Shown: in pieces, positions 4,046-35,478 of the stretch
How the letters are laid out: each line of letters begins with the position of its first letter
Numbering within the stretch: the first letter of the stretch is position 1
NCBI GenBank assembly: GCA_024697185.1
Contig: JAILGB010000008.1
Location: 1-50,614, forward strand
DNA: 50,614 nt
Origin: Opitutales bacterium
GTDB taxonomy: Bacteria > Verrucomicrobiota > Verrucomicrobiia > Opitutales > UBA953
Direction of reading: 5' to 3'
Made by a program: the position numbers and the translations under genes
Notes under the pieces: model-generated
Database searches by the model: none
What the model saw: the letters and a program-made list of their open reading frames with translations, nothing else
What the model was told of the DNA's origin: nothing

Positions 4046-4061
4046 CGTTCCCGCGGGAACG
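4046..4061. repeat. Perfect palindrome of two GGGAACG-type motifs between convergent genes
   Basis: CGTTCCCGCGGGAACG is a perfect 16-bp palindrome. It is followed within 35 bp by two more direct motif copies (GCGGGAACG and CGGGAACGG). It sits in the 78-bp gap between the convergent ATP-grasp and sulfatase genes, where a bidirectional transcription stop would be expected. There is no long T-run, so a terminator role is only suggested. Confidence 0.6.
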
Positions 4062-6636: not shown

Positions 6637-6682
6637 TCAGATTTTTTCCAAAACCGCGACATTCTCAATATGGCGCGTTTGC
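6637..6682 (-). pseudogene. Displaced native 3' end of rlmD (left attachment repeat)
   Basis: Read on the minus strand this is the end of an rlmD-type gene: RHIENVAVLEKI then TGA at 6637-6639, followed by a GGGAACG copy typical of this chromosome. It repeats 10020-10062. The two copies are identical over 38 bp (6645-6682 and 10025-10062), extending to 43 bp with one mismatch (6644 T, 10024 C). This is the footprint of site-specific insertion into the 3' end of rlmD: the gene body now lies 3.4 kb away at 9921-11297 and its original last codons were left here. Confidence 0.85.
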
Positions 6683-6808
6683 TCTGAATTGATGATGTGC
6701 ATCAAGCAACGATGCCGGAGACTCCATCGGGAGCAGGTCATTAAGCGCATCCAGTATCTCTCTGATGACTCCTACATATCCAATGTAATTATCCCAGTTG
6801 CGCGTCAT
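6665..6808 (-). CDS. Small ORF at left end of island
   Basis: 47 codons starting MTRNWDNYIGYVGVI and ending inside the left repeat (TGA at 6665-6667). It overlaps the 29-codon ORF at 6789-6878 in another frame. A single-base shift near 6795 would join the two into one product of about 75 residues following the DUF262 gene. It may be a truncated or frameshifted second gene of the defence operon, or two coupled micro-ORFs. No family recognised. Confidence 0.35.
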   Translation of the reverse strand: MTRNWDNYIGYVGVIREILDALNDLLPMESPASLLDAHHQFRANAPY

Positions 6809-6878
6809 TAGCTTTGACGCAGTTTTCAAATTTCAATATATGCTCAACAAGCGTGTCGTAATCGGCTATCGTCGGCAT
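6789..6878 (-). CDS. 29-residue ORF directly after the DUF262 gene
   Basis: ATG at 6878, 4 nt after the TGA of the DUF262 gene, with AGGGGTGATTTC in front that could serve as ribosome-binding site. The peptide starts MPTIADYDTLVEHILKFENC and ends at TAA 6789-6791. It may be the 5' part of a broken gene continuing in another frame at 6665-6808. Function unknown. Confidence 0.35.
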   Translation of the reverse strand: MPTIADYDTLVEHILKFENCVKANDAQLG

Positions 6879-6882
6879 GAAA

Positions 6883-9800
6883 TCACCCCTTAATATATGG
6901 CACGATCACATCGTAAAACTTCCTTGTCCACTCTGCATGGAATTTTGCCATCTGAGGCCAGTCATCCTCATTTTCGATACTCACATTATCCAACTGGATA
7001 AACACCTTAGAGGCCTTAATATCATCGCCACGGTTCCACTGAAGCTCCGTGCCAAGCTTTGATTCGATTTCTGCCTTGTGCTGATAAAGATCATCAAAGG
7101 CCGCCTTATTCTCATCCTTGTCAGCTCTAGCAAATAACACCTCGGATCGCGCTGAATCGAAATTCGCTACGCAGCACAGATAAAAGCCTCCAATGCCAAA
7201 GAATCCTTTAATACAGTTGTCCGTGCTCGGATTGACATTGGTGAAAGAACCGGGATTCCCGTGTGCTTCCTGAATCTGCGTCAAAGCATAAGTCCAGTAT
7301 CGTTTCCTGATTTCAAACCTTGTCTCCGAGGATTTACCACTCAGACTCAATCGTTCACCAGCTAAAGAAAGTGCTGTTGTGATCCGGTCAAAGTGGTCGA
7401 TGATCCAGTCAAATATCTTCGGCTGCTCTACAAGATTAAAGGCGTCAGCCTTCTCCTCGATGACAATGGAGCGTGTGGCTCCGGTCGACTTGGAATAATC
7501 CCAATTCAGGCTCTCGCCAAATTCAGACTCTATCTGGTCTTTTAAATCCTTCAGGCGATTATAGGTATCCACATTGTAGGTGTAGATGCCCATCTTTATT
7601 CGCTTGCCATAAGGAATGGAGAAGAAAAGATGGTAACCATTTGCACCGATATGGACATTGTAATATGTGCGTCCGGAGGCCTTCTGCTTGGCAATATCGC
7701 CTGATCTACCATGCTCATTCGCATAGTTTACAAATGAAGTCCAGAATTGCAGTTTTTGATCTTCACCAGAACCCTCTGCGACATCTTCGGTTTCCGGAGC
7801 CGCTGCAGTCGATTCTTCCAAATCCTCCGGGATTTCGCGACCATCCTTAACAAATGAAATGCCGATCAACTTCTCCAACTGCTCCTCATCGAATTGCAAA
7901 TTCCAGCGTTCCTGCATGAAGACGAGGAGTTTTTCTGTCCTGCTGTAAATCTCAAAGGCCGTCCAGTCTGGGAGCTTGGAAACTTCTATTTCCGAATGCG
8001 AGCCGTTTTCGTATCCGCGACGTCCTGTTGTCTTGGAACGCTTCTTGTCCTCAAAGCTGTCATTCTGAAGAGCAGAGTTTACGCTCTGGCTTAACGGGAG
8101 AAGGTTTCCAAGCGCTCCCGAAAGCATCTTGATTTCGGCATTTTTAAACTGCCGGAACATATTACGCCAATAGAACTTTGTCGGCGTCTGCGGGAGTATA
8201 TGCTCAATGGACACCTTGTCTTTTTCGGATTTCGTAAACATCGACCACGTACAGAATCGATCAATGTTATTCTTTTCGGCCAGCTTGGCCTCATACTCAT
8301 AGAAGAAGTATCTCAGGCTGTTCCAATCATAATAGCCGTTTCCAGTCGAGAAGTATTTCTCAATTCTGGTGACGAAGTTCTGCGTGGCAAAATCCACATC
8401 GTTTGTGGTTCTGTCATAGATTTCCTCACAAAGCTCATCCACGTCTTTTTCTTTTACATATACCTGACGGGCAGCACGATAATAATCACTGCTGCCGTAG
8501 GAGGCATTGAAGTTTCCTAAGCGGAATGCAATAAAGATAAAGCGCTCAATAGCCTCAAGGATTTTTATCCTGCTATTTGTGGTAATATCCCTTCGACCAA
8601 TAATCGCTGTAACCAGCGGCCTAAAATGGCCAATGCCTATACGGTTAAGCCGGTCAACACGCTTTTGCTCATCTGGCGAAAGATTGACGCTCTCGAACGG
8701 GAAATAGGTGTCATACCAATACTTCGCCATATCCTTGAGGCTATTCACATAGTCCTCGATCTCTTTCGGCCGGAGCTTGGATACTTCTATGGTCTCAGGT
8801 TCTTCAACTTCAACTGGCTCAGTGTCCTCAGTATCTGTCACATCATCGCTTATAACTGATTCAGACTCTGCCTCAACAAGCACTGGCGTCTTTTCAAATA
8901 TACCCTTAGAGGAAAACTTACTCAGCAGGAACTTGATGTAATCGTCTCCACGCTTACGGGAATACCTGAAGTAGATAACCCAATGCGCACGCAGGAAATC
9001 ATCATCAGAAAGAGGAACATTCTTATTCCTTCCAAGCTGGTAGTAAACCTCTTTCCACGCATCATTAATTTTCTTACGAAGCGCAGACTTATCCTTCTCA
9101 TCAAACACCTCATCATCATAGAGTGTCGTTAGATAGATCAATCTGTTCTTCAGCAGTTCGAGGTTTGTCAGCTTCTTACCTCTGTTGTTCATGGTTTCAA
9201 AGGCCACAAACACATCGTAATCGTCGTCGATCTCATGGAGGTTGAACATCAAACGTTGTGTCAACTTTTTGTACAGAGTGTTTACTGCCTCAAGGCCATC
9301 TGCGCCGGATTCCTCGTACAACTTTCGAATGTTCTCGGCAAAGAAGTTCTTGGCGAATTTCAGGTTTTTGGTATAGTAGGTTTCGTTCACAGCGCCGGAA
9401 TACGGCTCCTCGAAAACCTTATATTTCATATATTCCGCGCTGGGATTATCAACCTCATAACCGAAGAGGTATGTTGTCACCACTCCATTAGGAGGTCTTT
9501 TCCTGCATATGTACTTTGAAACGATCTCCTCGACCGTCTCATAGCCCAGCGTAATTTCTTTATCGGACTTGTCCTTGTTTTCTTCCAGACCGCGCACAAA
9601 TCTAACGATTTCATTCAAGAGGATCACAAACGTGGTAATACGCTGCTGACCATCAACGATATGGCAAGGCTTATACCCGTTTTCCACAAGCCAGAGATCC
9701 TCACCCCAGCTTACGGTTTCCTTGCTTTTCAACGGCTTTAAAGACAGAAGACCCGTGTAATGGTAGCGATCAGACTGCAGATTCACAAGGTCATCCCAGA

Positions 9801-9906
9801 AATCCACGAGCTGCTGCTGCAACCAAGCGTAGCCTCGCTGATAGTCCGGTATCCGGAATAATCTATTTTGGAAAAGCAGCGACAACGGCTGCAGCTCATT
9901 TGCCAT
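6883..9906 (-). CDS. DUF262-DUF1524-(DUF4268)2 protein, GmrSD-like anti-phage nuclease
   Basis: 1007 residues from the ATG at 9906, chosen because GGAGGAATTACACT precedes it; the longer frame to 10002 runs through island-edge DNA. The N-terminal DUF262 domain shows IPDYQRGYAW (residues 19-28) and the signature DGQQR (85-89), which in GmrS/ParB-like domains binds and hydrolyses nucleotide. Near residue 600, IEHILPQTP followed by GNLLPLSQSVN is the DUF1524 His-Me-finger nuclease (GmrD part). The last 290 residues look like two tandem DUF4268 units: each opens with FW or YW, carries a LxxxxxEIES helix plus LxWxR-type strand, and ends in a Trp/Phe helix. GmrSD cleaves modified phage DNA; a similar single-chain role is inferred. 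There are no GGGAACG copies in 3 kb, unlike the flanking genes. The gene is the main cargo of an island bounded by direct repeats. Confidence 0.85.
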   Translation of the reverse strand: MANELQPLSLLFQNRLFRIPDYQRGYAWLQQQLVDFWDDLVNLQSDRYHYTGLLSLKPLKSKETVSWGEDLWLVENGYKPCHIVDGQQRITTFVILLNEIVRFVRGLEENKDKSDKEITLGYETVEEIVSKYICRKRPPNGVVTTYLFGYEVDNPSAEYMKYKVFEEPYSGAVNETYYTKNLKFAKNFFAENIRKLYEESGADGLEAVNTLYKKLTQRLMFNLHEIDDDYDVFVAFETMNNRGKKLTNLELLKNRLIYLTTLYDDEVFDEKDKSALRKKINDAWKEVYYQLGRNKNVPLSDDDFLRAHWVIYFRYSRKRGDDYIKFLLSKFSSKGIFEKTPVLVEAESESVISDDVTDTEDTEPVEVEEPETIEVSKLRPKEIEDYVNSLKDMAKYWYDTYFPFESVNLSPDEQKRVDRLNRIGIGHFRPLVTAIIGRRDITTNSRIKILEAIERFIFIAFRLGNFNASYGSSDYYRAARQVYVKEKDVDELCEEIYDRTTNDVDFATQNFVTRIEKYFSTGNGYYDWNSLRYFFYEYEAKLAEKNNIDRFCTWSMFTKSEKDKVSIEHILPQTPTKFYWRNMFRQFKNAEIKMLSGALGNLLPLSQSVNSALQNDSFEDKKRSKTTGRRGYENGSHSEIEVSKLPDWTAFEIYSRTEKLLVFMQERWNLQFDEEQLEKLIGISFVKDGREIPEDLEESTAAAPETEDVAEGSGEDQKLQFWTSFVNYANEHGRSGDIAKQKASGRTYYNVHIGANGYHLFFSIPYGKRIKMGIYTYNVDTYNRLKDLKDQIESEFGESLNWDYSKSTGATRSIVIEEKADAFNLVEQPKIFDWIIDHFDRITTALSLAGERLSLSGKSSETRFEIRKRYWTYALTQIQEAHGNPGSFTNVNPSTDNCIKGFFGIGGFYLCCVANFDSARSEVLFARADKDENKAAFDDLYQHKAEIESKLGTELQWNRGDDIKASKVFIQLDNVSIENEDDWPQMAKFHAEWTRKFYDVIVPYIKG

Positions 9907-9920
9907 AGTGTAATTCCTCC

Positions 9921-11297
9921 TTACCCGACAACTCCGTCCGTAGTCGAGCTCGTCTGTGTTAATTGCATGTGAGACTTTATCCCGGATAGCTGTCCGGTAC
10001 ATATCCAGTCTCTTGAACTGATTCTTTCCAAAACCGCGACATTCTCAATATGGCGCGTTTGCGGGAACAAATCAAAGGGCTGGACGGTTTTGAGGGCATA
10101 TTTGCCGCTCGCGAGCAAAAACTGCAGGTCGCGCGCCTGGGTGTCGGGACCGCAGGAAACGTAAACGATGCGCTTGGGAGCAAAGTCCAAAAGCTGCGTC
10201 AAAAACGCCTCGTCGCTGCCCTTGCGCGGCGGATCCATAATCACGGCGCACTGATCCGGCGGGAACGGGACCTGCGCGAAAATGATTTCCGACGATCCCG
10301 CGACAAATTCGCAATTCCCAATGCCGTTCCCGCGGGCGTTTTCGCGGGCGTTGACAACAGCGTCTTCGCTGACTTCGACCCCCAAGACGCGTTCAAAAGA
10401 TTTTGCCGCCGACAAGGCGAAAAGTCCGCTCCCGCAATAAGTATCGACCAAAAAGCGGCAATCGCCGTTCCCGCGGGCGGCTTCGACGCCAAAGCGGACA
10501 AAATCGGGCAAAATAAAAGGATTGTTTTGGAAAAAATCGCCCGCGACAAAATGCAAGGTCAAATCCCCGACGCGTTCGGAAACTCTGCTTTTGTGATCGG
10601 TGACGACCCCTTCGAGCGTCTCGCGTAAGAGCAATGTCGCCCCGCGCTTGAATTCCCCGCGCGCCATTTTTGCCCGCGCGCCGTCACGAACAGCCGGAAG
10701 CGCACGATTGATCGCCTCCGTCGCAATGGGACAAGCGGGAACGTCGATGATTTTTCGGGCACTGCCGGCCGCCAAAAAACCGATCGGGAAATTTTCCTCG
10801 CCCTGTCGCGGGCGTTCGAAATGCGGCGTGATTTTGGAGCGGTAAGCCCATTGTTTGGGCGACGCGAAGCACGGTTTCAGCGTTCCCGCGGGCAAATCGA
10901 TTTTGCCGATACGCGTCAAAAGTTCCTCGATTTGCCGCGTTTTCCATTCGAGTTGGGCGGCATAACTGAGATTTTGATATTGGCAGCCGCCACAACGGCC
11001 AAAAAGCGGGCATTGCGGCTCGACGCGCTGCGGCGAAGCCTTGAGAACCCGGATCAGATCGGCGCGGGAAAAGTGCTTGGAGTTGTGCCAGACGCTCGCC
11101 AGAACGCGTTCGCCGGGAAGCGCTCCCGCGACAAAGACAACCCAAGATTCGCCCGTGTCGAGCCCGATACGGCCGACGCCTTCACCGAGATTGGTCAGCG
11201 AAGAAATCTCAATTTCAATTTCCTGATGATACGCGAACGGCTCCGCCTTGAATTTTGGCGGAGCTTTGCGCGCGGGACCCGAAAAATCTGTTTTCAT
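9921..11297 (-). CDS. rlmD: 23S rRNA (uracil) methyltransferase, RlmD/RumA family, C-terminus altered by island
   Basis: 458 residues. TRAM domain at about residues 25-90. The [4Fe-4S] cysteines are C96, C102, C105 (CPLFGRCGGC) and a fourth near 186 (VPACPIA). The SAM-binding motif is LVDTYCGSGLF; the active site is MDPPRKG and YVSCGP with the catalytic Cys. It methylates a uracil C5 in 23S rRNA, or possibly tRNA (TrmA-type); RlmD-type is favoured by the Fe-S cluster. The native protein would end RHIENVAVLEKI; here the frame passes through the right repeat (ERI) and continues about 32 residues into island DNA (SSRDWICTG...) before TAA at 9921. It is last gene of the run from lpxR, 3 bp after rluD. 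Confidence 0.9.
   Translation of the reverse strand: MKTDFSGPARKAPPKFKAEPFAYHQEIEIEISSLTNLGEGVGRIGLDTGESWVVFVAGALPGERVLASVWHNSKHFSRADLIRVLKASPQRVEPQCPLFGRCGGCQYQNLSYAAQLEWKTRQIEELLTRIGKIDLPAGTLKPCFASPKQWAYRSKITPHFERPRQGEENFPIGFLAAGSARKIIDVPACPIATEAINRALPAVRDGARAKMARGEFKRGATLLLRETLEGVVTDHKSRVSERVGDLTLHFVAGDFFQNNPFILPDFVRFGVEAARGNGDCRFLVDTYCGSGLFALSAAKSFERVLGVEVSEDAVVNARENARGNGIGNCEFVAGSSEIIFAQVPFPPDQCAVIMDPPRKGSDEAFLTQLLDFAPKRIVYVSCGPDTQARDLQFLLASGKYALKTVQPFDLFPQTRHIENVAVLERISSRDWICTGQLSGIKSHMQLTQTSSTTDGVVG
10020..10062 (-). repeat. Right attachment repeat of the island, inside rlmD 3' end
   Basis: Direct repeat of 6640-6682 (38 bp exact, 43 bp with one mismatch). It encodes the last residues of the conserved RlmD core (RHIENVAVLER). 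The gene is intact across the junction but acquires a new tail. No integrase gene lies between the repeats. Confidence 0.85.
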
Positions 11298-13419: not shown

Positions 13420-14400
13420 TTATGCCGCGCGGCGTTCCCGCCAGCGGTCATAGGCACGAAAAACGCTCGCGATAATCGTGCCCGAGATGCTGTGCCAAAC
13501 GCAGGAAATCGCACAGGGCAGAACGGCGAGCGGGAACGACGCCGCAAAAAAATTCGACGCCAAAACTGTCCCCAGACCGGCGTTCTGCATTCCGACCTCG
13601 ATGGAAATCGTGCGTTTTTTTGCCGTCGGGAAACGACAGGCGACGCCGACAATCCAACCGAACAGATAGCCGAGCGCGTTGTGACAAAACGCCACCGCAA
13701 ACGCGAGCCCGAAAAGCGCCAGACCGCCCGCGAGCAAATGCGCCTGCACAGCCGCAATCACTCCGCCGACGATCAAAGAAAGGCAGATAACGCTCACGCC
13801 GGGCATCAAAGCCTGGATCGTGCCGAAGCAGCGGCGTTTTGAAAATGCATAATTCAACAAACAACCCAAGCCCACGGGAACGACCGTCACCGTCAAAATA
13901 TTGAAGAACATCGGCCAAAAGTCAATTGCGACAATCGTTCCCGCGAGATCTTGCATCAGCCAAGGCGTCATCGCCGGCGCCAAAAGCGTCGAAACGCAGG
14001 TCATCCCCACCGAAAACGCCACATCGCCGCGACAAAGATAAGCCATAATATTGCTCGAAACACCGCCCGGACAACAGCCGACAAGCATCAGCCCCAAAGC
14101 CAGCGCCGGCTCCAAACCGAAAACTCGCACCAAAATCCAAGCCAGACCCGGCATAATCACAAACTGCGCCGCCGCTCCCGCCAAAAAATCCCACGGACGA
14201 CGCGCCACCACCGCAAAATCACGCATCGAAAGCGTCAAGCCCATCGTCAGCATGATAACACCCAAAATCAAGGTTTGAACATTGCCGTGAACCCAGGAAA
14301 AAAGCGCGGGAACGCAAAATCCCAAAAGCGTCACCGCCGTCACGACCGGCGTCGCAAAATCCGCCAGAGACTTGCTCAAAAATTTTAAAAACGAAACCAT
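13420..14400 (-). CDS. BASS-family sodium-dependent transporter
   Basis: 326 residues from the ATG at 14400, which has the strong ribosome-binding site GGGAGGGAGAAAAA; the longer upstream frame is an arginine-rich shadow over tsaB. About ten hydrophobic helices. Bile acid:sodium symporter family landmarks are LMLVGCCPGGVSSNIMAYLCRGD (opening of the crossover region) and EVGMQNAGLGTVLA, which form the two discontinuous helices at the sodium and substrate site. The substrate could be a bile acid, pantoate, pyruvate or another organic anion and cannot be told. Inner membrane. Placed between tsaB and the parvulin gene. Confidence 0.9.
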   Translation of the reverse strand: MVSFLKFLSKSLADFATPVVTAVTLLGFCVPALFSWVHGNVQTLILGVIMLTMGLTLSMRDFAVVARRPWDFLAGAAAQFVIMPGLAWILVRVFGLEPALALGLMLVGCCPGGVSSNIMAYLCRGDVAFSVGMTCVSTLLAPAMTPWLMQDLAGTIVAIDFWPMFFNILTVTVVPVGLGCLLNYAFSKRRCFGTIQALMPGVSVICLSLIVGGVIAAVQAHLLAGGLALFGLAFAVAFCHNALGYLFGWIVGVACRFPTAKKRTISIEVGMQNAGLGTVLASNFFAASFPLAVLPCAISCVWHSISGTIIASVFRAYDRWRERRAA

Positions 14401-14419
14401 TTTTTCTCCCTCCCGAAAA

Positions 14420-15094
14420 TCATGCGCCGCGATGCCTGCCGGGCGTCCATTTGGCATACGTCGCCGCCGAAGCCGTATTGATCGCATCCGGCAAAGCGCC
14501 GCAATCGCGCAAAAGTTCCGGACAGTCTGCAAAAACCGCCGGATCCGCCCGCAAAAGTTCCAAGGGATCAATCGGCGTTCCCGCCAAGGGGAAAACCGCC
14601 CGGCGCTGCGGCAAGACAAAAACCTGTTCCGGCAAAGCGGACAATTCCTCCGTCTTCAACTCCAAAAAATGTTCCGCGGGAACGCCGTTTTCATCCGCCG
14701 CCAGCACATTCCAACAGTTCATCCGCGACTCCGCGACAACGGCAAAAGGCGCGTTCCCGCCGGCATTCAACCCCGCACGCAAAATCAAACGCGCCGCCAA
14801 AGAAAGACTTTGAAACGCCAAAACCGGACGTTCCCGCAAAACCGCCGCGGCGCGAATCGCCATCGCCGCAATGCGAATCCCCAAAATCGAACCCGGACCC
14901 TCGCAAAACAAAAAACCGTTCCCGCCAAAACCGGGAGCCGCCGACGCGACCGCCGCAAAAAGCCCTTCAAGCGCGGGACGGCGGTCGATCTCAAAACATT
15001 TCCAAGCCCGACCTGTCGCATCCAGCGTTCCCGCCGCCACGCCCTGCGGACAGGACGCATCCAGCAAAACAAAATCCCCGAGATCCCTTTTCAT
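14420..15094 (-). CDS. tsaB: TsaB-like tRNA threonylcarbamoyladenosine protein
   Basis: 224 residues from the ATG at 15094, which overlaps the TGA of lpxR (TGATG), so translation is probably coupled. The fold is ASKHA-like. The best landmark is FCEGPGSILGIRIAAM, which matches the GPGSFTGLRIG motif of TsaB, followed by a helix as in the family. TsaB pairs with TsaD and TsaE to make t6A37 on ANN-decoding tRNAs; it has no activity alone. The N-terminus (VLLDASCPQGVAAG) is shorter and less conserved than usual and no other tsa genes are nearby, so the assignment is moderate. Confidence 0.65.
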   Translation of the reverse strand: MKRDLGDFVLLDASCPQGVAAGTLDATGRAWKCFEIDRRPALEGLFAAVASAAPGFGGNGFLFCEGPGSILGIRIAAMAIRAAAVLRERPVLAFQSLSLAARLILRAGLNAGGNAPFAVVAESRMNCWNVLAADENGVPAEHFLELKTEELSALPEQVFVLPQRRAVFPLAGTPIDPLELLRADPAVFADCPELLRDCGALPDAINTASAATYAKWTPGRHRGA

Positions 15095-16029
15095 CAAAAC
15101 ACAAACGAAAGCCGCGCCCCCGTATAGGCGAAATAAAGATGATCCGCCGAGACGAAATCCTTGCGGCGGAAATGTTCGCCGACCGTCAACAGATAACGTT
15201 CGCCAAAAAGCACCGCAACTCCGAACGAAAGTTCAAAACTGAACGGATAGGGCGTAATGCCGGTATCGTCCCGGAAATCGCGCAGCATCTCACCGCCTAG
15301 CGTCACATCGTAGGCGACCGCATCGACATGAAAATCGACAAAGGCGTAATAATAATTTTTTGTCTCCGCAGGAACAAAAACCGACGCCGTTGTATAGCGC
15401 ATCGAACGGTAGCCCAGATCCCTAGGAAGATTTTTGCCCCAGCGCCATTGGACACCGAGAGACGCCACATCGCGAACCGTGCCGAGCGAAAGATATTGCC
15501 GTGTGAGCAAATCGCTCGCGTAGCCGTCGCCGGGCGTTCCCGCCAGCACAAAACGCTGACCGAGCTCCAGCTGCAAATTGATGCCCGGCTGGTCGCGCAC
15601 CTGACTGCCCCAACCGCTCAGCGGAGCCTCGCCGATCAGATTGTGATAATCGCGCTGCGTGCCGTGAGCACCCGAAGACGGACCGATAACACCCGCCTGA
15701 AGCTCCACGGAAAAATAACGATCGGGCGCAAAAAATTCCGTCAGACCGCCAGACAGATAAAGATAGCCGCAATACGGATGATCCCCGCGCGGCGCGGCGA
15801 GAGTGTTGTGGTTCGCCGGAGAATAAATTTCCTGACCGAAACTCGCGAAATAAGTCCTGCCGGAATTTTTTTCATCGGCAAAACTGAACGAACAACGCGT
15901 GTGATTGGTGTAATATTTGTCGGACCAGCGAAAATCGTTGTCATCCCAAATGCTAAAAACCGAAGACGCCGAAAACGCAGGAATCATCGTTCCCGCCGAC
16001 AAAAAAAGCACCGGTAAAAATTTTCGCAT
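15094..16029 (-). CDS. lpxR: Outer-membrane lipid A 3-O-deacylase, LpxR family
   Basis: 311 residues. Signal peptide MRKFLPVLFLSAGTMIPAFSA. The mature part has alternating beta-barrel strands and ends in the aromatic LSFVF typical of outer-membrane proteins. LpxR/DUF2219 landmarks: DNDFRWSDKYYTNH near the N-terminus, YSPANHN, HPYCGYLYLSGG, GVIGPSSGAHGTQRDYHNL (with the catalytic-region Gln/His) and GWGSQVRDQPGINLQLE. LpxR removes the 3'-acyloxyacyl group of lipid A in a calcium-dependent way, lowering immune recognition. Its presence argues for an LPS-bearing outer membrane. First gene of the minus-strand run down to rlmD. Confidence 0.88.
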   Translation of the reverse strand: MRKFLPVLFLSAGTMIPAFSASSVFSIWDDNDFRWSDKYYTNHTRCSFSFADEKNSGRTYFASFGQEIYSPANHNTLAAPRGDHPYCGYLYLSGGLTEFFAPDRYFSVELQAGVIGPSSGAHGTQRDYHNLIGEAPLSGWGSQVRDQPGINLQLELGQRFVLAGTPGDGYASDLLTRQYLSLGTVRDVASLGVQWRWGKNLPRDLGYRSMRYTTASVFVPAETKNYYYAFVDFHVDAVAYDVTLGGEMLRDFRDDTGITPYPFSFELSFGVAVLFGERYLLTVGEHFRRKDFVSADHLYFAYTGARLSFVF

Positions 16030-16173
16030 CTGCCTTTATGATAGTCCCAAAAAAGCGTTCCCGCCACAAAAAATAACGCGTTCCCGGCAAAAAAAATCCG
16101 CAGAAATAAATCTTTATAGAACGGGATTTTCTTAAGGCGCAGAAAGGAAATAAACAAACGATAGCCTTGTTTT

Positions 16174-16223
16174 TTAGAATTATTCTAATTTTTATTGATT
16201 TTTCAAATTTTTTTGTTTATTCT
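16174..16223 (+). promoter_or_regulatory. ahpC promoter with perfect Fur/PerR-type palindrome
   Basis: TTAGAATTATTCTAA (16174-16188) is a perfect 7-1-7 inverted repeat. It lies 6 bp upstream of -35 TTGATT (16195-16200), which is followed after 17 bp by -10 TATTCT (16218-16223). The predicted leader is about 95 nt. The rest of the 295-bp gap 16030-16324 is AT-rich and contains two motif copies near 16055-16085 that belong to the lpxR side; no further gene is seen. Confidence 0.7.
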
Positions 16224-16324
16224 TGGGATTGTGCAGGGGGAAACCTGTGCCTGTGAAAACAGAAAATATTTTGGAAACTCCAAATCACAAAAATAAGCAA
16301 AACAAATAGAAAGAATAAAATAAA

Positions 16325-16888
16325 ATGTCACAAATCAATAAGGAAATCGCCGATTTTTCGGTGCAAGCTTATCAAAACAACGCCTTCAAAACCGTCAGCA
16401 AGTCTGACATTATGGGCAAATGGAGCGTCTTCTTTTTCTATCCGGCGGACTTTACATTTGTCTGCCCGACGGAGCTCGAAGACCTGCAAAATGCTTACGC
16501 GAAATTTCAGGCTGCCGGCTGTGAAATTTATTCCGTAAGCTGCGACACTCATTTTGTCCACAAAGCCTGGCACGACCACTCCGAGCGGATTTCGAAAATC
16601 ACCTATCCGATGCTCGCCGACCCGACTCACGCTCTCGCCAAGGATTTTCAAGTCCTCATCGAAGACGCCGGCCTCGCCGAACGTGGCACGTTTATCGTCA
16701 ATCCCGAAGGCAAAATCGTCGCCTACGAAATCAATGCCGGCAATGTCGGACGCAACGCCGACGAACTCTTCCGCAAGCTCCAGGCCTGCCAATTTGTCCA
16801 CGAACACGGCGATGAGGTCTGCCCTGCAAAATGGACTCCCGGCGCGGAAACGCTCAAACCGTCGCTCGATCTCGTCGGACAACTCTAA
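16325..16888 (+). CDS. ahpC: Alkyl hydroperoxide reductase subunit C (typical 2-Cys peroxiredoxin)
   Basis: 187 residues, the usual AhpC length. The peroxidatic cysteine is C47 in FYPADFTFVCPTE; the resolving cysteine is C166 in EVCPAKW. It reduces hydrogen peroxide and organic hydroperoxides in the cytoplasm; the disulfide is re-reduced by AhpF-type proteins, and the next gene, 33 bp on, is exactly such a reductase. The upstream palindrome predicts PerR/Fur-type control. The coding sequence contains no GGGAACG copies, unusual for this chromosome, perhaps because it is highly expressed and conserved. Confidence 0.97.
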   Translation: MSQINKEIADFSVQAYQNNAFKTVSKSDIMGKWSVFFFYPADFTFVCPTELEDLQNAYAKFQAAGCEIYSVSCDTHFVHKAWHDHSERISKITYPMLADPTHALAKDFQVLIEDAGLAERGTFIVNPEGKIVAYEINAGNVGRNADELFRKLQACQFVHEHGDEVCPAKWTPGAETLKPSLDLVGQL

Positions 16889-16921
16889 AATATAAAAATT
16901 CCCTTCCGCAGGAGAAATTCT

Positions 16922-18562
16922 ATGCAAAACTTTTATGACGTCGTCATCGTCGGAGGCGGACCCGCGGGTCTGACGGCCGCCATCTATCTCGCTCGAGCCT
17001 GCTATCGTGTTCTGGTCGTCGAAAAAGAAAAATTTGGCGGTCAAATCACTATCACAGACGAAATCGTCAATTATCCCGGAGTCGTAAAAACTTCCGGTGA
17101 AGCGCTCACAAAAGAGATGCAGCGTCAGGCAGAAAGTTTTGGTGCGGAATTTCTCCTTGCGGAAGTAAAGAGTCTCGAAGTCTCCGGCGATGTCAAAAAA
17201 ATTCATACGTCGCGCGGAGATTTTGAGGCCTTTGGCATCCTCCTCGCAACGGGAGCGCACCCGCGTATGATCGGGTTTCCCGGAGAGGCGGAATATCGCG
17301 GTCACGGTGTTGCCTATTGTGCGACCTGTGACGGGGAATTTTTTGCGGGGAAAGATGTTTTTGTCATCGGCGGAGGTTTTGCGGCGGCGGAAGAATCGGT
17401 TTTTCTCACCAAATATGCGCGCCATGTTACCGTTTTAATCCGCAAGGACGATTTTTCCTGCGCCGCGCAAAGCGCAGAAGCCGCCAAAACACACCCCAAG
17501 ATTGAGATCGTCTGCAATGCAGTCGTCGAAAAAGTCGAGGGGGATTCGCTTGTAAGGAAAATCACTTATCGCAATACAAAAACGGGAACGACAACGACAT
17601 TTGTCTCACCGGACGGCGGGAACATCGGCGTTTTCGTGTTTGCCGGCTATGAACCGGAAACATCACTCGTCAAGGGGCTTTGCGAGCTCAGCCCGGACGG
17701 CTATATCGTGACCGACAGCCAGCAAAAAACGTCCGTGGACGGTGTCTATGCCGCCGGTGACGTTTGTATCAAAAACCTTCGTCAAGTCGTAACCGCTGTC
17801 AGCGATGGAGCCTTGGCGGCGACAGAGCTTGAAAAATGGGCGGCCGCCCAACAAAAGAAAACCGGGCGCAAAGCCCAAATTCCGGCGCACGGGAACGCGA
17901 ATTCCGAGGCGACAGTCGCGGGAACACCGGCGGAGACAGTCGTTCCCGACAAGCAAAACAGTCCCTTTGACGCACAGATGCTGGCACAACTCCAAGCGGT
18001 ATTTGCCCGTATGAACACCTCACTTGTGCTCAAACTAAGTCTCGACGACCGACAAGTTTCACGGGAACTCGAAACATATATGAACGCCCTCGCTGCCGCG
18101 ACGGACAAACTCCGCATCGAAGAAGACGGCCCGGATGCCGTTCCCGCCCAAGAACGCCCCTGCGTGCGCGTCTGCCGGGAAGACGGCTCTTGGACGGGAC
18201 TCGCTTTTCACGGCGTGCCCGGCGGCCACGAATTCACTTCGTTCATCCTCGGACTTTACAATGCGGCAGGACCCGGACAAGCGATCGACGACCTTGTAAA
18301 GACACAACTTGCAGCCGTCACAAAAGCGACAAATTTTAAAATCATGGTCTCCCTCTCCTGCACGATGTGTCCCGACCTCGTCGTCGCCGCACAACGGATG
18401 GCATCGCTCAATCCCAACATAACGGCGGAAATCTACGACTTGGCGCACTATCCGGCGCTAAAAGAAAAATATCAGGTGATGAGTGTGCCCTGCTTTGTCA
18501 TCAACGACGGACCGGCACATTTTGGCAAAAAAGATATTGCAGCCCTTTTGAAACTGATTTGA
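16922..18562 (+). CDS. Thioredoxin reductase fused to a C-terminal AhpF-N-type domain
   Basis: 546 residues, ribosome-binding site AGGAG 10 nt before the ATG. Residues 1-305 are a TrxB-like flavoprotein: FAD site GGGPAG (11-16), redox pair CATC (133-136), NAD(P)H site VIGGG (148-152), second FAD site VYAAGD (275-280). Residues 305-350 are a linker containing three motif copies. Residues 355-546 resemble the tandem thioredoxin fold of the AhpF N-terminal domain, with the active pair CTMC (480-483) in SLSCTMCPDLV and the cis-Pro in SVPCF. In classical AhpF this domain is at the N-terminus, so the order is permuted. It would pass electrons from NAD(P)H to AhpC, encoded just upstream. Confidence 0.9.
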   Translation: MQNFYDVVIVGGGPAGLTAAIYLARACYRVLVVEKEKFGGQITITDEIVNYPGVVKTSGEALTKEMQRQAESFGAEFLLAEVKSLEVSGDVKKIHTSRGDFEAFGILLATGAHPRMIGFPGEAEYRGHGVAYCATCDGEFFAGKDVFVIGGGFAAAEESVFLTKYARHVTVLIRKDDFSCAAQSAEAAKTHPKIEIVCNAVVEKVEGDSLVRKITYRNTKTGTTTTFVSPDGGNIGVFVFAGYEPETSLVKGLCELSPDGYIVTDSQQKTSVDGVYAAGDVCIKNLRQVVTAVSDGALAATELEKWAAAQQKKTGRKAQIPAHGNANSEATVAGTPAETVVPDKQNSPFDAQMLAQLQAVFARMNTSLVLKLSLDDRQVSRELETYMNALAAATDKLRIEEDGPDAVPAQERPCVRVCREDGSWTGLAFHGVPGGHEFTSFILGLYNAAGPGQAIDDLVKTQLAAVTKATNFKIMVSLSCTMCPDLVVAAQRMASLNPNITAEIYDLAHYPALKEKYQVMSVPCFVINDGPAHFGKKDIAALLKLI

Positions 18563-18595
18563 CACGGGAACGCCATTTGGCGGGAACGCAGTTTT

Positions 18596-18633
18596 CCGCG
18601 GGAACGGGATTTTTCGCGTTCCCGCGGTTTTTT
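18596..18633 (+). terminator. Terminator built from two inverted motif copies
   Basis: Perfect 11-bp stem CCGCGGGAACG / CGTTCCCGCGG followed by TTTTTT, 34 bp after the reductase stop codon. Five motif copies lie in about 80 bp here. It ends the ahpC operon. Confidence 0.88.
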
Positions 18634-18684
18634 GCGTTCCCGAAATGCCCACTATATATTTCTCGCGCGCGGGAATGATAAAAT

Positions 18685-18692
18685 GCTATAAT
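18685..18692 (+). promoter_or_regulatory. panD extended -10 promoter
   Basis: GCTATAAT with the preceding T gives the extended -10 form TGCTATAAT; TATAAT is at 18687-18692. No good -35 is visible, as is usual for extended -10 promoters. The ATG follows after 22 nt, with GGGGA in between as a weak ribosome-binding site. Confidence 0.55.
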
Positions 18693-18714
18693 TAGGGGAC
18701 AATAAAAAATACCT

Positions 18715-19107
18715 ATGAACATTTCCATGCTCAAAAGCAAAATTCACCGCGCTGTCGTCACACAGGCGGAGCTCGACTATGTCGGCAGCATTACCATTGA
18801 CGCCGAACTGTTGAAAAAAGCGGGGATTTTGGAATATGAAAAAGTCCAGGTCGCGGATGTCCAGACCGGTGCGCGTTTTGAGACTTACACCATCGCGGGA
18901 ACGCCGGGCAGCGGCGTCATCTGCATCAACGGAGCCGCCGCCAAGCTCGCCAATGTCGGCGACCGCGTCATCATCATGGCTTACGCCGACATGACGCCCG
19001 AAGAAGCCGCGTCCTTCAAGCCGACGGTCGTCTTCGTGGACGACAAAAACCAAGTGCGGCGCGTCAGCCGCTACGAAAAGGCGGGAACGCTTTTTGACCT
19101 CGACTAA
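18715..19107 (+). CDS. panD: Aspartate 1-decarboxylase
   Basis: 130 residues. The start aligns with E. coli PanD, which also has a methionine at residue 5. Self-cleavage site G24-S25 in YVGSITID yields the pyruvoyl cofactor on Ser25; the proenzyme ends in a variable tail. It makes beta-alanine for pantothenate and CoA. Other landmarks are the [21 protein letters not shown] core and the Lys/His pair in KSKIHRA. It is a single gene with its own promoter and is followed by further motif copies near 19085 and 19115. No other pan genes are nearby. Confidence 0.96.
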
Positions 19108-19198
19108 GCTCGCGGGAACGCCGCTTTTATCTCGCCCGTTCAAAAACCTTCAACTAAAATAAAACCCTATTCAAAACCTCATTTTTCAGATTTTCAAA

Positions 19199-21619
19199 AT
19201 GACAAAGTTCTGTTGCACCTCCTCAATCTTCCTTTCCCTCGCCCTCGCTGGCTTCGCCAAGATGCCGGCTCTCGACGGCTTTAGCTACGGGAACAGCAAT
19301 GCTCCGACCGGCAACGAGTGGGATCCCGCGCGCGATGTCAACTGCGTCGGCAATCTCGCCCTCAACAAGGAAATGCCCCGGGCGACCTTCACCTCGTTCC
19401 CGGATATGGAAAGCGCACGAAAAATCCTGCCGGAATTTTCAAAATACGTTCTCTCGCTCAACGGGGACTGGAAATTCAACTGGGTCAAAAAACCGCAGGA
19501 CCGCCCGCAAAATTTTTACAAGACGGATTTTGACGTCTCCGGCTGGGATACGATTCCCGTCCCCTCCAACTGGAACATTGTCGGGCTCTCCGAAAAAGGC
19601 AACGGCCATCACAAATACGGATTACCGATTTACGTCAACCAGCCGGTCGTTTTTGAACACAAAGTCCAAGTCGGCGACTGGAAGCTCGGCGTGATGCGCG
19701 TTCCCGCCGACAAACGCCGCCTGACTTACGAATACCCCAATGAAGTCGGTTCGTATGTCAAAGAAGTCGCCGTTCCCGCCGATTGGGACGGCCGCGAGAT
19801 TTTTATCGCCTTTGACGGTGTCGATTCCTTCTTTTATCTTTGGGTCAACGGACAATATGTCGGTTTTTCGAAAAACTCCCGCGATCCCGCCCGTTTCGAC
19901 ATTTCAAAACTCGTCAAAGCCGGCGAAACGGCGCGAATTGCCGTCGAAGTCTATCGCCACAGCGACGGCTCCTTCCTCGAAGCCCAGGACATGTTCCGCC
20001 TCCCGGGCATCTTTCGCGATGTCTCGATTTATTCGACACCCAAAACGCAGATCCGCGATCTCGTCGCCAAGCCCAAGGGCGATGTGATGAACGTCACGGT
20101 GGACATTCGCAACTTTGACAGTGCCTGCGAGGATTGCGAGATCGTCTGTTCGCTGTTCCCGCAAACGGAACTTTACAGCGACGATTTTGCAAAAAATCCG
20201 GCTGCCGTCGTCACCGTTCCCGCGGGAACGCTCAAAGCCGGCGAAAACAAGGAATTGCCGACGCTAAAAATGCACATCGAAAACCCCTTGCGCTGGTCTG
20301 CCGAAGAACCGAATCTTTATTTGTTGACGGCAGAACTGAAAAAGGGCGGCGAAACGCTCGAGGTCGTTTCTGCCCAAGTCGGTTTTTGTGAAGTCGAAAT
20401 CCGCAAAAACCAAGTGGACGAATACGGCAAAACCGGCGATTATTTTTATGTCAACGGCAAAACCGTCAAGCTCAAGGGCGTCAACCGCCACGAATCGCAT
20501 CCCGAACGCGGCCACGCCCTCACCCGCAAGGATATGGAGGACGAAATCAAGCTGATGAAGCGCGCGAACATCAATCACGTGCGCAACTCCCACTATCCCG
20601 ACGCGCCTTATTGGTATTACCTCTGCAACAAATACGGCATCTATCTCGAAGACGAAGCCAATATCGAGTCGCACGAATACTACTACGGCGACGCTTCGCT
20701 CTCCCATCCCGTGGAATGGCGCGCCGCACACGTCGCCCGGGTGATGGAAATGGTCCATCGCAACGTCAACCAGCCTTCGGTCGTCATCTGGTCGCTCGGC
20801 AACGAAGCCGGCCCCGGACAGAATTTTAGCGCCGCCTACACGGAAATCAAGACCTTTGACACGACGCGCCCCGTCCAATACGAACGCAACAACGCCATCG
20901 TCGATATGGGTTCAAACCAATATCCTTCCGTCGGATGGGTCATCGGGACCGCCCGCGGAGACAGCGGCCGCAAATATCCGTTCCATATTTCCGAATACGC
21001 CCACTCGATGGGCAACGCGATGGGCAACCTCAAAGACTATTGGGACGCTATCGAGACCTCCAACTACATCGTAGGCGGAGCGATCTGGGACTGGATCGAC
21101 CAATCCATTTACAACTGGGACGCGGAGACGGGAACGCGCTATCTCGCCTATGGCGGGCAGTTCGGCGATTTTCCCAACGACGGACAATTCGTGATGAACG
21201 GCATCATCTTCGGCGACCACAGCCCGAAACCGCAATATTTTGAAGTCAAAAAAGTCTATCAAAATGTCGGCGTCAAAGCGCTCGACAACGAGACGGGAAC
21301 GGTCTCGATCTTCAACAAAAACTATTTTGTCAGCCTCGACGAATACGAAGTCGCCTGGGAACTGAACGAAAACGGAAAACAAATCGCCGCGGGAACGCTC
21401 GATGTCGGAACAATCCTGCCGAGAAACGAAAAAATCGTCAAGCTGCCGATCGCGGGAACGCCGTTCAAAGCGGACGCGGAATATTTCGTGACGCTTTCGT
21501 TCAAACTCAAAAACGACCGCTATTGGGCGCCGGCGGGCTATGTGCAGATGGCGGAGCAAATCCTGATCCGCCCGGCGACAGCAAAGCCCTCGCTGCTCGA
21601 AAAATCCCAAAAACGCTAA
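19199..21619 (+). CDS. Secreted beta-galactosidase large subunit (GH2, LacL-like)
   Basis: 806 residues. Signal peptide MTKFCCTSSIFLSLALAGFA. Domains in order: GH2 sugar-binding (about 85-275, LNGDWKFNW, FDGVDSFFYLWVNG), immunoglobulin-like (280-395), TIM barrel (400-690), and the LacZ domain 4 beta-sandwich to the end (YVQMAEQILI). Acid/base E536 in SLGNEAGPG, nucleophile E599 in HISEYAHSMGNAMG, and conserved HESHPERGHAL. The chain stops where full-length LacZ would continue into the small-chain domain; that domain is a separate exported protein encoded 25 bp downstream. Together they would form a LacLM-type enzyme outside the cytoplasm that cleaves terminal galactose from host or plant glycans. 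Confidence 0.9.
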   Translation: MTKFCCTSSIFLSLALAGFAKMPALDGFSYGNSNAPTGNEWDPARDVNCVGNLALNKEMPRATFTSFPDMESARKILPEFSKYVLSLNGDWKFNWVKKPQDRPQNFYKTDFDVSGWDTIPVPSNWNIVGLSEKGNGHHKYGLPIYVNQPVVFEHKVQVGDWKLGVMRVPADKRRLTYEYPNEVGSYVKEVAVPADWDGREIFIAFDGVDSFFYLWVNGQYVGFSKNSRDPARFDISKLVKAGETARIAVEVYRHSDGSFLEAQDMFRLPGIFRDVSIYSTPKTQIRDLVAKPKGDVMNVTVDIRNFDSACEDCEIVCSLFPQTELYSDDFAKNPAAVVTVPAGTLKAGENKELPTLKMHIENPLRWSAEEPNLYLLTAELKKGGETLEVVSAQVGFCEVEIRKNQVDEYGKTGDYFYVNGKTVKLKGVNRHESHPERGHALTRKDMEDEIKLMKRANINHVRNSHYPDAPYWYYLCNKYGIYLEDEANIESHEYYYGDASLSHPVEWRAAHVARVMEMVHRNVNQPSVVIWSLGNEAGPGQNFSAAYTEIKTFDTTRPVQYERNNAIVDMGSNQYPSVGWVIGTARGDSGRKYPFHISEYAHSMGNAMGNLKDYWDAIETSNYIVGGAIWDWIDQSIYNWDAETGTRYLAYGGQFGDFPNDGQFVMNGIIFGDHSPKPQYFEVKKVYQNVGVKALDNETGTVSIFNKNYFVSLDEYEVAWELNENGKQIAAGTLDVGTILPRNEKIVKLPIAGTPFKADAEYFVTLSFKLKNDRYWAPAGYVQMAEQILIRPATAKPSLLEKSQKR

Positions 21620-30812: not shown

Positions 30813-30820
30813 GTGACGAT

Positions 30821-32500
30821 TTAGGTGTATTTTAAAACTTCCTCGATTGTCGTATGGCCGTCAAAGATACAGCGCAAGCCGTCCTGGCGCAGGGTCCGCA
30901 TGCCGTTTTCCACCGCCTTTTGTTTTAAGACCAGCGTCGGCGCCCGATGGGTGATCAGGTCGCGGATCGCGTCGGTAATCATCATCAGTTCGAAAAGTCC
31001 CTGCCGTCCCTTGTAGCCGGAACGGTTGCAGACGGAACAGCCGCGACCGTAGTAGAACTGCTTGTCGGCGATTTCGATCGGATCGACATTGAGCATTTTG
31101 ATCACCGCCTGGTCGGGTTCATAGGCGGTACGGCAGTTTTTGCAAATATGGCGCAGGAGCCGTTGTCCCAAAACGCCTTCGAGAGACGCCGCGATCAAAA
31201 AGGGTTCGATGCCCATATCGACAAGACGTGTGACGGCGCCCGGAGCGTCGTTGGTGTGGAGGGTCGAGAGGACGACGTGTCCCGTCAGCGCCGACTGGAC
31301 GGCGATGCTGCCCGTCTCCTGGTCACGGATTTCTCCCAACATGATGATGTCCGGGTCCTGACGAAGGAAGGAACGCAGCGCGGAGGCGAATGTCAGCCCC
31401 ACCTGGTGGTTGATCTGCACCTGCATGATGCCTTCGATTTCATATTCGACAGGGTCTTCCGCAGTCAAGATTTTGACATCGACGGTATTGACCTCTCGCA
31501 AGGCGGAGTAAAGGGTGGTCGTTTTGCCCGATCCCGTCGGTCCCGTCACCACAAAAATGCCGTTGGGACGGTTGACGAGTGAACGGATGCCGGTCATGAT
31601 TTCGTCCGTCATCGTCAAATTTTCGAGATCCAGATTGACAACGCCCTTGTCCAAAATACGCAAGACGACGGACTCGCCGAACTGTGTCGGGAGCGTCGAA
31701 ACACGCAAATCGATGGCGCGGCCGCCGACGGTCGTCTTGATACGTCCGTCCTGCGGGATACGTCGCTCTGCGATGTTGAGACCCGACATCACTTTCACAC
31801 GGGCTGTCACCGCGTTGGCGAGCGATGCCGGAGGAGGCGCCATCTCATAAAGCGCGCCGTCGATACGGTAGCGGATCCGGAACTCGCCCTCAAACGGCTC
31901 GAAGTGAATATCGGACGCCTTCGCCTTGACCGCTTCCTGCAAAACCACATCGACAAAGCGAATGATCGGAGCCTGGTTGGCGGAGTCGTTCAGGGCGTTC
32001 TCGTCGTCGCCCGCAAAATTGAGCCCTGAGAGTTCGCCGATGACATTGTCGAGAGAATTGTTCAATTCCCCATAATACTTGACAATCGCATTTTCGATCA
32101 GGACGGGATCGCCCACCAAAAACTCGACATCAAAATGCAAAACAAAGGAAAGTTCCTCCCCGATTGAAAAATTGAAGGGATCTTTGGCGAGAAAACTGAT
32201 TTTGTCCGGAGAAGAGCGCACAGGCAAAATTCCGTATTTGTGCGCCTGCTCCTGATTGATCAGTTTCAAGAGGCGCGGCTCGATATCTTCCGGGACTTGC
32301 ACCATGCAATCGACACCCAAGTGCGCCGCCACTAGTTCCAGCAAATCGTCGCGCGAAATATAGCCGTTGTCTTCGAGGACTTCAGAAAACGGTTTGCCGG
32401 TCTCAATATGTTCCGTCCAGGCTTCATCGACCTGCGACTTCGTGGCCTTTTGGGAATCGACGATGAGCGTCGTCAAAATTTCACTGTGTTCGTCAAACAT
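30821..32500 (-). CDS. pilB: Type IV pilus extension ATPase PilB/GspE family (copy 1)
   Basis: 559 residues. N-terminal MshEN/T2SSE_N domain (residues 1-150), then the ATPase: Walker [16 protein letters not shown], Asp box [15 protein letters not shown], Walker [18 protein letters not shown], His box [16 protein letters not shown] zinc site of two CxxC pairs ([12 protein letters not shown] and [14 protein letters not shown]) is typical of PilB/GspE. It powers pilus assembly from the cytoplasm. It follows pilT by 36 bp. It has no GGGAACG copy in 1.7 kb. A second, similar gene lies at 33643-35361. Confidence 0.92.
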
Positions 32501-32536
32501 AATTCAATTTCACAAAAAAGTTATCGTCAAAACGCG

Positions 32537-33622
32537 TTAGTAGCCGATTTCACGCAATTTTTGGCGCATCTCGTCGGGAACCTGCGCGTAGGTGATCGCC
32601 TCGGAGGCGTCGATGACGCCGTCGCTGACGAGCGAAAGGAGGTGGCCGTCGAGCGTCCGCATGCCGAGAGCGCCTCCCGTCTGGATTTCGGAAGTGATCC
32701 GATAGGTTTTGTTGTCGCGGATAAGTGCGGCGGCGGAATCCGTATTGATCATGATCTCGTAGCCGGCGACGCGACCGCCGTTTTTGCGACGGCAGAGCAC
32801 CTGGGAGATCACGGCGACCAATGAGGACGCCAGCTGCATGCGAATCTGTTCTTTTGTATCCGCCGGGAACGCGTCAACAATACGGTCCACGGTTCGCGCC
32901 GCGCCCGTCGTGTGCAATGTCGCGAAAACCAGGTGACCTGTTTCCGCCGCCGAAACCGCAGCCGTGATCGTCTCCAAGTCGCGCATTTCGCCGACAAGGA
33001 TAATGTCCGGGTCCTGGCGCAGCGCTGCGCGGATCGCCTCCGAGAAGCTGCCGACATCGCGCCCGATTTCGCGTTGCGTCACCACAGAACGTTTGTGGTC
33101 GTGAAAATATTCGATCGGGTCTTCGATCGTAATGATATGCCGCTCCTCGTTTTCGTTGATCCAGTTGAGCATCGACGCGAGCGTCGTCGTCTTACCCGAG
33201 CCCGTCGGTCCCGTCACCAAAATCAGCCCGCGCTGGCGGCGCAGCAGGGATTTCACCTTGTCCGACAAGCCGAGTTTCTCGAGCGAAAACATATTGTTCG
33301 GAATCTGGCGCAAAACAATCCCGTAGGCGTTTTCGTCGCCGTTCCCGCTGCGCGCCTTGAAACAGCTCACACGAAAACGTGCCTTGGCGCCAAACGAAAA
33401 ACCGAAATCGCAACCGCCCGACTCCTGCAGGCGTTTCAAATGATGTTCCGGGGTGATCTCTTTGACAAAAGCTTCCGTCTCCGCCGGAGTCAGCTTAGGG
33501 CCGTCCACCGGCAACATGCTCCCGGAGATACGCAAAACCGGAGCCTGATCGACGTGCAAATGCAAATCGGAGGCTTTTTCCTGAACAACCAAATCCAAAA
33601 GTTCTGTAAGTGTATAATTCAT
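32537..33622 (-). CDS. pilT: Type IV pilus retraction ATPase PilT
   Basis: 361 residues, usual PilT size, lacking the long N-domain and zinc site of PilB. Starts [25 protein letters not shown]. Walker [16 protein letters not shown], Asp box [21 protein letters not shown], Walker [17 protein letters not shown], His box [21 protein letters not shown], and the C-terminal variant of the AIRNLIRE motif. PilT retracts pili, the step that pulls DNA across the outer membrane in competent bacteria. Placed between two pilB-type genes, 20 bp after the upstream one. Confidence 0.94.
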
Positions 33623-33642
33623 CGTAAAAAAACAAATTCGGA

Positions 33643-35361: not shown

Positions 35362-35446
35362 AAAATAAAATCAAATAAAAACGGCCACAAAGGGGTTGCG
35401 ACCCAAAAGCAATTTGCAACTGCCCTATTAGTTTAGACGCAAGCAT

Positions 35447-35478
35447 CCGTTCCCGCAAATACAAATTCACGGGAACGG
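35447..35478 (-). repeat. Inverted motif pair after apbE
   Basis: Arms CCGTTCCCG / CGGGAACGG (9 bp, 14-nt loop), 4 bp beyond the apbE stop codon, without a T-run. It is probably a transcript-end hairpin. The remaining part of the 121-bp gap 35362-35482 shows no gene. Confidence 0.6.

Follow-up and report, generated by a model that had tools for sequence, protein, structure and literature searches.

A GmrSD-type restriction gene between direct repeats at the 3′ end of rlmD in an Opitutales bacterium

How does an orphan restriction gene come to lie within the 3′ end of rlmD, between two copies of that gene's last codons, with no integrase beside it? We examined this locus in a 50,614-nucleotide stretch of an Opitutales genome (GCA_024697185.1, contig JAILGB010000008.1; the whole stretch is hereafter called the window) and compared it with related genomes and with mobile elements at the same site. 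We conclude, with a probability of roughly 0.78, that the insert is an att-flanked, recombinase-free cargo segment derived from elements targeting the H-[VI]-E codons of the rlmD (rum) 3′ end.

Structure and content of the insert

The homologous part of rlmD, a 23S rRNA uracil methyltransferase gene (Pfam PF05958) whose product is 66–75% identical to those of genus relatives, occupies positions 10020–11297 of the minus strand, with the gene body at 10063–11297 and the right copy of a direct repeat (10020–10062, minus strand) forming its in-frame 3′ end (QTRHIENVAVLERI) and the attL-side junction. The left copy (6640–6682, minus strand), at the attR-side junction, encodes the same peptide (QTRHIENVAVLERI) with LEKI where the right copy reads LERI, and is followed by the native rlmD TGA, the repeat stopping exactly ahead of it. 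The two copies agree at 42 of 43 positions at a spacing of 3380, share an uninterrupted 38-nt core (6645–6682 and 10025–10062), and enclose 3.3 kb within a block of about 3.4 kb when the repeats are included (6640–10062). A sequence-only reading of the locus had described this arrangement, with the last rlmD codons present twice, 3.4 kb apart, as 38-bp repeats and the native LEKI-TGA surviving at the left end, and had named a paralogous duplication within one gene family as the finding that would overturn it; a chance paralogous repeat is ruled out, as the repeat consists of the last rlmD codons, which are single in relatives. The insert is also foreign in composition, with a G+C content of 45.4% against 53.9% for the rest of the window, and is devoid of the heptamer GGGAACG, which has 190 copies in the window and of which 13.4 would be expected in the insert from the density outside (the minimum in equal-length windows outside the insert is 2). 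Both properties, including an expectation of about 13 heptamers, agree with what had been read from the letters.

The sole supported gene between the repeats is an intact GmrSD-type restriction gene (6883–9906, minus strand; 1007 aa) encoding GmrSD_N, GmrSD_C and DUF4268 domains. DGQQR of the DUF262 part was located by a motif check within IVDGQQRITT, and the three GmrD motifs of the DUF1524 part, EHxxPQ, L-G-N-L and NxxFxxKK, were read off the translation as IEHILPQ, LGNLLPLSQSVN and NDSFEDKK, following published definitions (PMC4619093). The protein thus shares domains, signature motifs and single-chain form with the GmrSD type IV enzymes, along with DUF4268, which most often goes with GmrSD domains (PMC4619093). 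On this family likeness in sequence it probably acts as a type IV enzyme on modified phage DNA (PMC4619093), glucosylated hydroxymethylcytosine being one example of such a modification, with the GmrS part predicted to use NTP and the GmrD HNH part predicted to cut.

At its other end the insert is read together with rlmD, whose frame continues beyond the right repeat through 33 element-encoded codons (9921–10019, minus strand) to a stop just ahead of the GmrSD gene. RlmD function should persist despite the insert, because the native end is nearly intact and merely bears a 33-residue tail. The GmrSD gene starts 14 nt past the extended rlmD stop on the same strand, with the ribosome-binding site AAGGAGG, and no excess of promoter-like sites was found; given this short gap, shared strand, good ribosome-binding site and ordinary number of promoter-like sites, the gene is probably transcribed by read-through from the rlmD promoter. 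Two micro-ORFs had also been listed in the interval. Both exist as open frames, but the 54-aa frame (6665–6829, minus strand) ends inside the repeat and is probably not a gene, and searches with it and with the second, 29-aa frame gave no meaningful match, so that both were dropped as genes and as remnants of an integrase. Of the earlier description as a defence island, the defence-type gene stands and the word island is generous for one gene.

No recombinase gene lies between the repeats, nor does any conjugation or mobilisation gene, and the host genome yielded no match to the large serine recombinases (PF07508). The genome does encode two Xer-like tyrosine recombinases and, with no large serine recombinase among its genes, a resident integrase is ruled out as the mover. 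The sequence-only reading of an rlmD-site insertion carrying a GmrSD-like gene and lacking an integrase is borne out. The lack of such an enzyme in the genome supports the view that the insert is at present immobile and would move only if a recombinase specific for rlmD came into the cell. An assembly or binning artefact, which might be suspected in a draft genome of 32 contigs, is exceedingly improbable, since both flanks and both junctions lie on one contig, the repeat consists of host sequence that differs from that of genus relatives, and the genome is 97% complete with 0.08% contamination.

Empty sites in relatives and a half-site at the left border

RlmD is present in all eight genus genomes and in 76 of 79 family genomes. 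Empty sites in relatives had been proposed as a check on the insertion, and such sites were found: in a comparison that took one genome per species, and in which some contigs stop 0.4–3 kb from rlmD, 63 further rlmD 3′ ends from other species (7 genus and 56 other family genomes) could be read with downstream DNA, and all are single and intact, the frame closing a few codons after a conserved TRH[IV]E. Of 373 genomes in the order, just one yielded the GmrSD gene (E ≤ 1e-60), and the insert is therefore recent on that scale.

The insert lies at the H-[VI]-E codons of the rlmD 3′ end, the integration site of the rlmD (rum) element family, and an attP-type half-site (CATCAATTCAGAGCAAACGCGCCATATTGAG, 6664–6694, minus strand) crosses the border between the element and the left repeat. 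In phages and elements of Bacillota, copies of the rlmD tail carry the half-site ACATCAAT-N9-TCGAGCCAY-RTNGAR, and its part ACATCAAT-N9-TCGAGCCAY stands directly before the core in the orphan tails of a Lachnospiraceae locus (L023), a metagenome-assembled genome labelled Coprothermobacter (L025) and a 27-kb viral contig (L126, one base off), and once in the Streptococcus suis prophage phi-SsuFJSM5_rum (L060). The left junction of the window has the form CATCAAT-N9-ACGCGCCATATTGAG and reads TCATCAAT-TCAGAGCAA-ACGCGCCAT, so that the half-site of the family stands at the element end of the insert with 3 mismatches among its 17 defined bases. This likeness was first noticed by eye and then tested. 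A match with 3 mismatches in 17 is weak alone, because such a match turns up somewhere in 25 of 100 shuffled windows. With a profile built from 14 Bacillota-type sites, the left junction scored 19.7 bits and ranked first of about 101,000 window positions, the next scoring 3.7 and the host's own rlmD site in the same register −21 on the full half-site profile. The shared core supplies part of the 19.7 bits, and the columns outside the repeat were therefore scored separately; on these alone the left junction, a position set beforehand, ranks 64 of 101,130, and the host's rlmD site, aligned likewise, gives −35. The arm of one Bacillota-type site (L192) agrees with the left junction at 11 of 12 non-repeat bases (best-of-20-sites null 4e-5).

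Scans of other sequences place the half-site beside rlmD tails. The exact form ACATCAAT-N9-TCGAGCCAY, which was not loosened, has 17 matches in viral contigs, 10 of them with an rlmD-type tail behind; when the RTNGAR core was added, in a pattern loosened to admit the window, 10 matches were left, precisely those with the tail. The pattern, likewise loosened to admit the window, occurs in 8 of 392 genomes of the order to which L023 belongs (L192 being among the later sites), with an rlmD-type tail at six of the seven loci read. Across 388 genomes of the phylum to which the window belongs it has a single occurrence, the one described here. The repeat core had no match in the viral contigs, and the canonical P′ arm ATTGATGT, the mirror of ACATCAAT, was not seen by eye in the right junction. 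A short half-site thus links an orphan restriction gene without an integrase to mobile elements of a defined family, and it offers a means of finding lone recombinase-free cargo blocks.

Related cargo and elements at rlmD

The 3′ end of rum is a known integration site, used with an 18-bp core by phi-m46.1 (PMC4288039) and with a 14-bp att and serine integrases by S. suis ICEs (PMC9815147), in line with the earlier mention of streptococcal ICEs at this site. Elements at rlmD are seen mainly in Bacillota, with large serine recombinases where the enzyme has been seen. GmrSD relatives with 88–91% amino acid identity occur in Lachnospiraceae (L023), Agathobaculum (L024), the Coprothermobacter-labelled genome (L025) and the 27-kb viral contig (L126), a Bifidobacterium boum relative reaches 85%, and plasmid relatives of the protein all fall below 60% (best 47.5%). 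Copies of the rlmD tail lie downstream of GmrSD in L023, L025 and L126, placing the same cargo lineage at like sites in Bacillota. DNA likeness to the relatives (blastn, about 80%) is confined to the GmrSD gene, and no DNA outside that gene is shared with the Bacillota relatives except the half-site. The window's RlmD is about 40% identical to the Lachnospiraceae copy, and this low identity, together with gene content, suggests a host outside Bacillota; the rRNA-methylase site rlmD is thus in use outside the lineage where its elements are common.

The surroundings of these genes differ among loci. In L025, an intact rlmD end (2–199) is followed by a glyoxalase-like gene, a GNAT gene, a frameshifted GmrSD gene and, near position 4954, another rlmD 3′ end; in L126, two serine recombinases lie upstream of a DUF262 gene, a type I restriction system, GmrSD and an orphan rlmD tail; and in the S. 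suis phi-*_rum prophages a 61% GmrSD relative lies directly behind the serine-recombinase pair. Serine recombinase genes are found near half-site copies in L179, L183, L200 and L202, and recombinase-free, att-flanked segments in L025 (4.8 kb), L060 (4.2 kb, with aminoglycoside nucleotidyltransferase genes), L200 (1.7 kb) and L205 (5.7 kb). These segments agree with the published notion of streptococcal CIMEs and microCIMEs, 1.2–13 kb in length, which keep both att sites and cargo without recombinase and transfer genes (PMC7563491).

Several of these loci have features of their own. The resistance segment of L060 is flanked by near-identical, geneless and microCIME-like stretches of 116 bp (9475–9591 and 13691–13807), each between two att cores. 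The L205 segment (13717–19450) holds one gene for a 1586-aa protein with a SMEK domain and a weak P-loop match, a candidate defence gene with no PADLOC match, and the L200 segment (17639–19366, reverse complement) holds one RhuM-family gene (PADLOC candidate PDC-S05). L201 (435 and 17669, reverse complement) is a 17-kb rlmD element with type I restriction, DUF262-like and phage-type genes. Like the window insert it has the host tail duplicated at either end, and none of its open frames was noticed to encode a recombinase.

Compared with CIMEs, the window insert has the same att flanks, in the form of direct repeats at a known site, carries cargo, and likewise lacks recombinase, conjugation and mobilisation genes, but it is single rather than in tandem with an ICE or IME, lies at rlmD in a lineage whose site is otherwise empty, and may descend from a phage or an ICE; as to the ICE or IME ancestry of CIMEs, the contexts of its close cargo relatives are phage-like (L126) or undefined. 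With phi-m46.1, phi-SsUD.1, ICESsuYS64 and the S. suis prophages it has the site and conserved codons in common (14–18-bp core), but those elements possess recombinases, together with genes for phage functions or conjugation, that the insert lacks, and the att arm of the S. suis prophages differs from the window's. Because it lacks a large serine recombinase gene, we do not file the insert as a full rlmD serine-recombinase element. A further parallel is offered by pseudo-SCC elements at staphylococcal rlmH, in which recombinase-free cargo lies at the 3′ end of a 23S rRNA methylase gene and is moved by serine recombinases in trans; the gene, recombinases and att sequences are others, and the parallel is one of analogy only. 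On the best reading, the insert is a cargo segment, akin to a CIME or a pseudo-SCC element, that belongs to the rlmD serine-recombinase family but lies outside the family's usual hosts, and so adds a member to a known kind of element.

Junction tails and routes of arrival

Ordinary integration leaves the element's tail (P′) in the rlmD-side junction, so that the two tails differ; L200 and L205 show this pattern. Both tails in the window instead match the host tail with no more than a single base of difference: to the left of the core, the left copy carries bases of host type (ACGCGCC in place of TCGAGCC), and the right copy, where a single foreign integration should leave P′, is host tail as well. 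We count this against the best reading. Like tails at both ends are also seen in L201, L025 and L060. Those of the window could stem from a previous stay of the segment in this same species, from capture of a tail, from insertion by homologous recombination, or from conversion of one copy by the other. A self-standing new class of element, duplicating about 40 bp of target and having no recombinase gene of its own, would suit a repeat that ends exactly ahead of the native stop and the host tail in both copies in the window and L201; we consider it very unlikely, as the half-site ties the insert to recombinase-bearing elements and L200 and L205 show the unlike tails of ordinary integration.

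The tails also bear on a second alternative, in which a circle of the segment entered by homologous recombination through a captured rlmD tail (Campbell-type), or the segment passed between strains by natural transformation on the rlmD flanks, the site-specific step belonging to its history. Such entry would explain why the repeats are host-specific and why host tail stands in both junctions, and duplicated tails exceed 100 bp in L060 and L025 and the tail repeat of L201 is nearly identical; but 43 bp is short for RecA-type recombination and the half-site is still in register, and we judge this course unlikely.

Under the preferred reading, an rlmD-specific serine recombinase would have placed the segment in trans, a dependence that its neighbours suggest. 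The segment may have arrived as part of a larger element whose remainder was later lost, or may itself have moved, through accretion followed by loss of its partner. Decay in place, a sub-case of the preferred reading, supposes a full rlmD-type prophage or conjugative element deleted down to its attR-proximal GmrSD gene. L126 and the S. suis prophages do combine recombinases, other cargo and GmrSD in one larger element, with GmrSD nearer the attR end, and the window keeps that end only; no recognisable remnant of other element genes lies between rlmD and GmrSD, however, the host tail is cleanly copied at the right junction, and recombinase-free segments with both junctions occur elsewhere, which leaves decay quite possible at somewhat below even odds. 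The satellite, decayed element or element mobilised in trans of the sequence-only reading are accordingly narrowed, by half-site and cargo, to the rum/rlmD serine-recombinase elements of Bacillota, within which both decay in place and movement of the segment in trans are compatible with the data.

More tentatively, and at well below even odds, the rlmD 3′ end may be a landing pad for a cross-phylum trade in cassettes, in which blocks lacking a recombinase and holding one to five co-directional genes, mostly for defence or resistance, would each end in the same att half-site, be transcribed from the rlmD promoter and be mobilised in trans by the rlmD-specific serine recombinases that passing phages and ICEs bring with them; the window block would then be a lone cassette in a distant host. 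The survey of streptococcal CIMEs was, by its own method, blind to lone recombinase-free blocks (PMC7563491).

Outside the insert, the heptamer GGGAACG is a feature of the window in its own right. It follows C in 188 of 190 cases (CGGGAACG), occurs 190 times over both strands against 12 expected, and often forms inverted pairs 9 bp apart (CGTTCCCGCGGGAACG), for example at 4046/4055, 4419/4428 and 20215/20224, which brings to mind an uptake or terminator signal. Two more stretches of about 2 kb (30813–32864 and 33347–35447) also lack it and may be other foreign DNA, and positions 13501–15500 have an AT skew of about 0.40 and a GC skew near −0.25, far from their surroundings.
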